Positions 3,662-6,116 of a DNA stretch of 64,000 bases are shown piece by piece. The notes below the pieces were generated by a model. It saw nothing but the letters and a program-made list of their open reading frames with translations. It was not told the origin of the DNA and ran no database searches. Numbering within the stretch: position 1 is the first letter of the stretch; each line of letters begins with the position of its first letter. Source of the DNA: Labrenzia sp. DG1229 (GTDB taxonomy: Bacteria; Pseudomonadota; Alphaproteobacteria; Rhizobiales; Stappiaceae); assembly GCF_000521215.1 (NCBI RefSeq), contig NZ_KI928930.1, forward strand, positions 1 to 64,000, in the 5' to 3' direction. Both the position numbers and the translations under genes were made by a program.

Positions 3662-6116
3662 TCAGACGTCAAGATTGGCTACCGTGAGCGCGTTGTCCTG
3701 AATGAACTCGCGGCGCGGCTCGACCTCGTCGCCCATCAGCTTTGTGAAGATGTCGTCGGCATCGTCTGCTTCCTTCACCTTGACCTGCAACAACGACCGG
3801 ACATTGGGATCGAGCGTTGTTTCCCAGACTGAGACACGCAATCATCTCGCCGAGGCCCTTGTAGCGCTGCAGCGAAATACCCTTCTGGCCGAATGTGTAG
3901 ACATGATCCAGGAGCGCACGAGGTCCGCGAATTTCGGTCGGAACATCCTTGCGTCGAAGCACCGCGGCCTTGCCGTAGACTTCGCTCAAGTGGTCTGCAT
4001 AGGTCGCGAGCCGGCGGGCATCTGCGGAATCCAGCAGTGCCGCATCAATGGTTGCGACTTCTTCCACGCCTCGGACCATGCGCCGGAACACGAGGCTGCC
4101 GTCGTCCCTGGCTTCACCGGCCCAACCCCGTTCGAATTCATCGGCCAGAATGTCCATGCGCCGCGCGATATAGGCCGCCGCTTCCTCCGCCTTGGAACGG
4201 TCTTCAAGGATCTCGGCGTTCAGGGCACCGGCGATTGCCGCCTGTTCAACAACGTCGCGGTTATACCGCGAATGCAGTCCGTCGAATATTTCCGCGATCT
4301 TGCGGGCTGTTTCCACAACGGACCGCAAATCCCGCCCTGTCCTGACCTCGCCACTGGCGAGCGTCAGGGAGGTATCGTCAAGGCCCTGTGCGATAAGATA
4401 GTCCTCAAGCGCGAGCTGGTCCTTGAGGTACTGTTCCGACTGGCCGCGCTTCACCTTGTAGAGCGGCGGCTGAGCGATATAGACATATCCGTTTTCAATC
4501 AGCTCGGGCATCTGCCGGAAGAAGAAGGTGAGGAGAAGGGTGCGGATGTGAGCGCCGTCGACGTCAGCATCGGTCATGATGATGATCTTGTGGTAGCGCA
4601 GCTTTTCGATGTTGAATTCTTCTTTGCCGATACCGGTTCCCAGAGCCGTGATCAGGGTCCCGATCTCGTTGGACGACAGCATCTTGTCAAAACGGGCGCG
4701 CTCGACGTTGAGAATCTTGCCGCGCAGTGGCAGGACAGCCTGGTTTTTCCTGTGCCGGCCCTGCTTGGCCGAACCACCCGCCGAATCGCCCTCCACCAGG
4801 AAGAGTTCGGCCTTGGATGCGTCGCGTTCCTGACAGTCGGCGAGCTTGCCGGGCAGGGACGCAACATCAAGCGCACCCTTGCGGCGCGTCAGTTCACGTG
4901 CCTTGCGAGCGGCTTCACGGGCGGAAGCGGCTTCAACCACCTTCGAAACGATCGCCCTGGCCGGCGCGGGATTTTCTTCCAGCCACTCGCTGACGATTTG
5001 TGAAATCAGATTTTCGACAACGGGCCGGACCTCGGAGGAAACCAGTTTGTCCTTGGTCTGCGATGAGAACTTCGGATCGGGAACCTTCACGGACAGGACG
5101 CAGGTCAGTCCCTCACGGCAGTCATCGCCGGAAAGCGAAACCTTTTCCTTTTTCATCAGGCCGGTTGATTCAGCATAGCCCGTGACCTGGCGTGTCAGTG
5201 CAGCGCGGAATCCGGCAAGGTGTGTGCCGCCGTCGCGTTGGGGAATGTTGTTGGTGAAACACAGCACCTGCTCGTGATAGCTGTCATTCCACCACATCGC
5301 CGTCTCGACGGTAATACCGTCTTTTTCGGCCTTCATGTTGATCGGTTCTTCGATCAACGGGTGCTTGGCGCGATCAAGGTAGCGCACGAAGGCCTCAAGA
5401 CCGCCTTCGTAGAGCAGCTCCTCGACCACATCCTCAACGCCGCGCTTGTCCGTCAGGATGATGCGGACACCGGAATTGAGAAAAGCAAGTTCGCGCAGCC
5501 TGTGCTCCAGCGTGCTGAAGTCGAATTCGGTTTTGCTGAAGGTCTCGGTGGACGGCAGGAACGTGACTTCGGTTCCCTTTCGCCCGTTCGCAGGCCCGAC
5601 GATTTTCAGCGGACTTTGTGCCTCGCCATGGGCGAAAATCATGGCGTGTTCCTGGTCGTTGCGCCAGATGCGCAATTCCAGTTTTGTGGAGAGTGCGTTG
5701 ACCACCGAAACGCCCACACCGTGCAGACCGCCGGAGACCTTGTAGGAGTTCTGGTCGAATTTTCCACCGGCATGCAACTGGGTCATGATGACCTCCGCCG
5801 CCGACACGCCCTCTTCCGAGTGAACATCTGTCGGGATGCCGCGGCCATTGTCGGAAACAGTGACGGAACCGTCCGGATTGAGTGTTACGGTCACATGGTC
5901 GGCGTGACCTGCGAGCGCTTCATCGATCGCGTTGTCGACCACCTCGTACACCATGTGGTGCAATCCCGATCCGTCGTCGGTATCGCCGATATACATTCCC
6001 GGCCGCTTGCGCACGGCATCCAGCCCTTTGAGTACCTTGATGGAGTCCGCTCCATATTCGGTGCCATTGTCGGATTCAGGGGTCGGAACAGGCTCTGACG
6101 TGGACGTGTCGCTCAT
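3662..6116 (-). CDS. gyrB: DNA gyrase subunit B, frameshifted near the C-terminus
   Basis: GyrB is the ATPase subunit of DNA gyrase and supplies energy for negative supercoiling. The start at 6116 ([20 protein letters not shown]) precedes the GHKL ATPase domain ([34 protein letters not shown]), the transducer domain, and the TOPRIM domain ([29 protein letters not shown]). The frame is normal to QRYKGLGEM, about residue 757. There, 16 bases (3827-3842) replace the usual 15 coding NPDQL, which shifts the frame. As read, the protein ends with an unrelated tail at 3669. With one base removed it continues [19 protein letters not shown] and stops at 3662-3664, giving about 817 residues. Because gyrase is essential, a sequence error is more likely than a true mutation. 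Confidence 0.93.
3827..3842 (-). other. Frameshifting 16-base replacement inside gyrB, adaptor-like
   Basis: Read on the coding strand the segment is ATTGCGTGTCTCAGTC and lies between GAGATG and TGGGAA. It contains TTGCGTGTCTCAG (3829-3841 on the complement), which I recall as the 3' end of the Roche 454 Titanium library B adaptor. Thirteen adaptor bases in place of twelve genomic ones account exactly for the +1 shift and for the loss of NPDQL. Confidence 0.75.

Follow-up and report, generated by a model that had tools for sequence, protein, structure and literature searches.

A frameshift in the gyrB of a draft genome is very probably a 454 adaptor B remnant left in the assembly

The GS FLX Standard kits of the 454 platform used the same adaptor as the GS20. 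The 44-nt adaptor B for the GS20 is given as CCTATCCCCTGTGTGCCTTGCCTATCCCCTGTTGCGTGTCTCAG in the available portion of PMC4103545, and a modified GS20 adaptor B with one extra T at its end appears in the accessible text of PMC2048665; the part of PMC8694468 that was available contains the complement of the 13-mer TTGCGTGTCTCAG, the stretch of concern in the present work. As far as the excerpted text of PMC4712552 goes, the 454 oligos for Titanium kits read CCTATCCCCTGTGTGCCTTGGCAGTCTCAG and are without TTGCGTGTCTCAG, and a 26-letter start of this Titanium-kit oligo co-occurs with the word Titanium in 172 papers.

We analysed a window comprising the first 64,000 nucleotides of one contig (G000:C15:1-64000) from an assembly of 7.63 Mb in 61 contigs. 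The coding strand of gyrB in this window is broken at TTGCGTGTCTCAG, which matches exactly at 3829-3841 on the minus strand (CTGAGACACGCAA on the plus strand), just as the initial annotation had it. The gyrB open frame (3669-6125, minus strand, 818 aa) is GyrB-like through RYKGLGEM and departs after that motif, running to a stop at 3669-3671. The Pfam domains HATPase_c, DNA_gyraseB, Toprim, GyrB_hook and GyrB_insert all lie in this first frame, within the segment at 3843-6125 (minus strand) that leads up to RYKGLGEM, its upstream limit being that of the open frame. The C-terminal end of GyrB, WETTLDPN...NLDV-stop, is instead read in another frame at 3662-3826 on the minus strand, with its stop at 3662-3664. 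The domain DNA_gyraseB_C (PF00986; 54 aa, E 3.7e-17) is absent from the 818-aa frame and is found only in this second one, bearing out the earlier proposal that the C-terminal part of GyrB stands in the wrong frame. The set of GyrB domains (HATPase, gyrase B, Toprim and C-terminal) is thus complete at the locus, with the C-terminal one in the other frame. We considered whether a second gyrB covers for the broken copy and rejected this candidate: a search of the assembly recovered no second gyrB, and the sole other match, 45% identical, was taken for ParE, an assignment that we infer. The relatives likewise have a second match to the GyrB query of about 41-46% identity.

The GyrB query found matches in all 31 genomes searched, the window's own included, and 29 of the 30 relatives yielded a gyrB locus (G021 gave none). 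Together with the best 80 of at least 586 confirmed stretches and one further locus, these make up 110 gyrB loci, of which 109 are distinct, as L025 and L069, whose cores are identical, probably represent a single record. We take the named members among those best 80 to be mostly Hyphomicrobiales. Exactly five residues ending in QL separate KGLGEM from W in 108 of the 110 loci examined, and in the two exceptions, L021 and L130, the contig ends before the site is reached. The initial annotation had described 16 bases replacing the 15 that code for a near-invariant NPDQL. The lengths hold, inasmuch as the lesion at 3827-3842 (minus strand) has 16 letters between fixed anchors where the sibling genome G033 has 15 coding for five residues. 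The motif is more variable than was supposed: NPDQL itself is present in 21 loci, NPEQL in 37 and NAEQL in 30, and what is conserved is five residues with a final QL. The same annotation had called for comparison with the gyrB of close relatives, and the 13-mer occurs in none of the 110 loci.

The gyrB of G033 consists of 821 codons with one stop, and its mismatches to the window number 6 in 165 positions on one flank of the site and 98 in 2283 on the other. The 120 letters adjoining the site upstream hold 18 differences from G033, above the gene-wide 98/2283; since only one residue is changed in the nearest 20 codons, this excess looks like ordinary divergence. Downstream of gyrB, the segment at 3422-3660 has two counterparts of 78-79% identity on another G033 contig, and the G033 match at gyrB ends at 3536; a repeat element at a rearrangement point is a possible reading of this segment. 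Near the start of the window, a 22-nt exact direct repeat, GAAGGACGGCATCTTTGATGCC, with a short hairpin (GGCATC TTT GATGCC), is found at 5-26 and 842-863, where it flanks on both sides an open reading frame at 116-826 (plus strand) whose end, judged by eye, we take to resemble a VPLPA-CTERM tail. One protein, encoded by an open frame at 582-3122 (plus strand), unites sulfate permease, STAS and cyclic nucleotide-binding domains.

The gyrB insert is identical at 13 of 13 positions to the last 13 of the 44 adaptor B letters. The oligo CCTATCCCCTGTGTGCCTTGGCAGTCTCAG is presumably what is meant by the name Titanium B adaptor, from whose 3' end the insert had been supposed to derive. We rejected the GS FLX Titanium adaptor B as the source, as its ending GGCAGTCTCAG does not occur in the insert, which is TTGCGTGTCTCAG. 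By its letters, the adaptor belongs to the older GS20 type of B and is not Titanium B. The initial annotation was therefore right in seeing the end of a 454 adaptor B, as given in the available parts of PMC2048665 and PMC4103545, and wrong in the name of the kit, because the Titanium-kit oligo, in the excerpt of PMC4712552, ends differently.

By itself the 13-mer is weak evidence. By chance it would be expected 0.23 times in 7.63 Mb and 0.002 times in 64 kb, and it occurs six times in 5 of 44 congeneric genomes, one of these occurrences lying in a 15-letter match to the adaptor (L045 of G042); under the low cut-off applied, congeners also show adaptor-like local alignments with scores of 11-15. 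What gives the 13-mer weight is its exact fit to the lesion, together with the longer remnants in other parts of the assembly. With one mismatch allowed, CCTATCCCCTGT gave 17 matches versus 21 for its reversed control; its nine exact matches all extend to at least 20 adaptor letters, and the one inspected of its eight 1-mismatch matches is without such an extension. For CTGAGACACGCA there were 35 matches, five of them exact, versus 10 for the reversed control, and the excess beyond the exact ones we provisionally put down to composition. Two 12-mers, GATAGGCAAGGC, at window positions 17909 and 18398 were considered as remnants and rejected as chance occurrences: they match an inner part of the adaptor, have no longer match and have unrelated flanks. 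A 19-mer of the adaptor end had no match in a public genome contig collection, which may omit this genome, and a limited literature search for adaptors left in 454 assemblies returned nothing directly on point, from which we claim no absence. Reads of the 454 platform start after adaptor A, and neither a 15-mer (one mismatch allowed) nor a 20-mer (two allowed) of adaptor A was found in the assembly. The available portion of PMC4103545 locates the sequencing primer in adaptor A.

Besides gyrB, 12 further remnants of adaptor or primer are present in the same assembly. Five are additional copies of the adaptor B end, all situated at contig starts or against runs of N and all pointing away from the genomic side. 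The last 12 letters are found at C1:198246-198257 (L050), before a run of 230 N, at C2:15460-15471 (L051), after a run of 453 N, and at C19:1-12 (L052), a contig start; 33 of the last 34 letters lie at the contig start C3:2-34 (L053); and 43 of all 44 letters are retained at C12:525410-525452 (L001), after a run of 494 N. The N runs beside the C1, C2 and C12 remnants may not be assembly gaps. The outward orientation of all five is that required of reads running into the adaptor, and among the six run-through remnants that in gyrB is the sole one away from a contig start or N run. These outward-pointing remnants lend support to the earlier suspicion of an assembly error in gyrB, and the nearly complete copy at C12 agrees with its claim that an adaptor accounts both for the lost residues and for the frame shift. 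As remnants shorter than about 12 letters are indistinguishable from chance, the 13 places are a lower bound.

The 20-mer with which adaptor B begins, CCTATCCCCTGTGTGCCTTG, has eight exact copies in this assembly, one of them within the C12 adaptor, at 525410. The remaining seven, which we term primer-type 20-mers (L141-L143 and L145-L148), are exact matches at C2:98276, C7:23566, C12:101963, C17:39571, C21:169624 (a contig end), C25:107943 and C25:428924. For the exact 20-mer the chance expectation is 2e-5 in this assembly. With up to two mismatches allowed, CCTATCCCCTGTGTGCCTTG was absent from 44 congeners, and its reversed control from all 45 genomes; we rejected a natural repeat as its nature, given that among the 45 genomes of the genus it is confined to the present one. 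At C2:98276, where an NMT1-like open frame ends, the 20 letters replace 20 of G033, which shares its first nine letters with the 3' end of the primer. At C25:107943, inside an open frame that encodes nucleotidyl-transferase and GlmU-like hexapeptide domains and that we take to be glgC, they replace 22 letters of G033, which has the first 12 in common with the primer. The copy at C12:101963 is overlapped by a patatin-like open frame. Two of the seven sites, C2:98276 and C25:107943, were compared with G033, and both look like the product of mispriming by an oligo that contains this 20-mer, presumably the 454 amplification primer B. In the available part of PMC4103545, whole adaptors serve as primers in further PCR. 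We raise, with considerable doubt, the idea that 454-era assemblies may hold a second, easily missed class of error, in which the 20-nt primer part of adaptor B would misprime in genes and silently replace some 20 letters, whether or not the frame shifts; the basis for it is two sites set against one sibling and a survey of the 20-mer in 45 genomes of this genus.

The position of the 13-mer within the lesion and the other remnants in the same assembly lead us to regard the gyrB frameshift, with a confidence close to certainty, as an assembly artefact, namely the end of a 454 adaptor B left in the consensus, rather than as biology. Four things are directly observed here: the adaptor match, the positions and orientation of the other remnants, the intact gyrB of the relatives and the lack of a second gyrB among the matches in this assembly. 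We propose that a short 454 library fragment would have been read through its end into adaptor B, and that 13 adaptor letters would have escaped trimming and entered the consensus at a spot in gyrB that was presumably thinly covered or badly joined. By replacing a different number of native letters they would shift the frame, an unremoved adaptor end accounting in this way both for the missing residues and for the change of frame. The living cell would have an ordinary gyrB.

The contrary position, that the strain carries a real frameshift mutation in gyrB with a chance likeness to the adaptor end, can draw on the six congeneric occurrences of the 13-mer, which have no known link to an adaptor. 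We consider it extremely improbable: such a mutation would have removed a five-residue stretch that 108 of 110 loci retain at that length and with QL at its end, and would have shifted the C-terminal domain to another frame in an assembly in which no other gyrB was found, and it stands against the dozen further remnants in that assembly. No more credible is an ordinary 454 base-calling error, at a homopolymer or otherwise, in which no adaptor was involved. Single-nucleotide indels at homopolymers are indeed described for one 454 draft genome in the accessible text of PMC4134206, but here 13 consecutive letters equal the adaptor end and the whole stretch, not one homopolymer letter, differs from the relatives. 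Nor do we give any but a minute chance to the lesion having arisen by mispriming of the 20-nt primer part of adaptor B instead of by run-through; the two internal 20-mers that look like mispriming offer a precedent within the assembly, but what remains in gyrB is the last 13 letters of adaptor B, from the end opposite to the primer part, and G033 shares no leading letters with this remnant.

An adaptor end left in the consensus thus makes the gyrB lesion a finding on data quality, with no biological novelty and no real feature. This reading keeps an essential gene from being wrongly reported as broken, and marks out 13 places in a single assembly for screening. Work on gene loss, pseudogenes or marker genes that relied on this gyrB would be misled.

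In relation to described systems, the likeness is to the GS20 454 adaptor B, going by the available parts of PMC4103545 and PMC2048665: its last 13 letters form the gyrB insert and 43 of its 44 letters recur at C12, the difference being that just 13 letters are left at gyrB. The GS FLX Titanium B oligo, as far as it is presented in the excerpt of PMC4712552, has its first 20 letters in common with the GS20-type adaptor B but diverges from it in lacking the 13-mer and in its own ending. As to the protein, the locus resembles GyrB, the DNA gyrase subunit B, in that its Pfam domains are present across two frames, and differs from it in that the adaptor remnant divides its reading frame in two.
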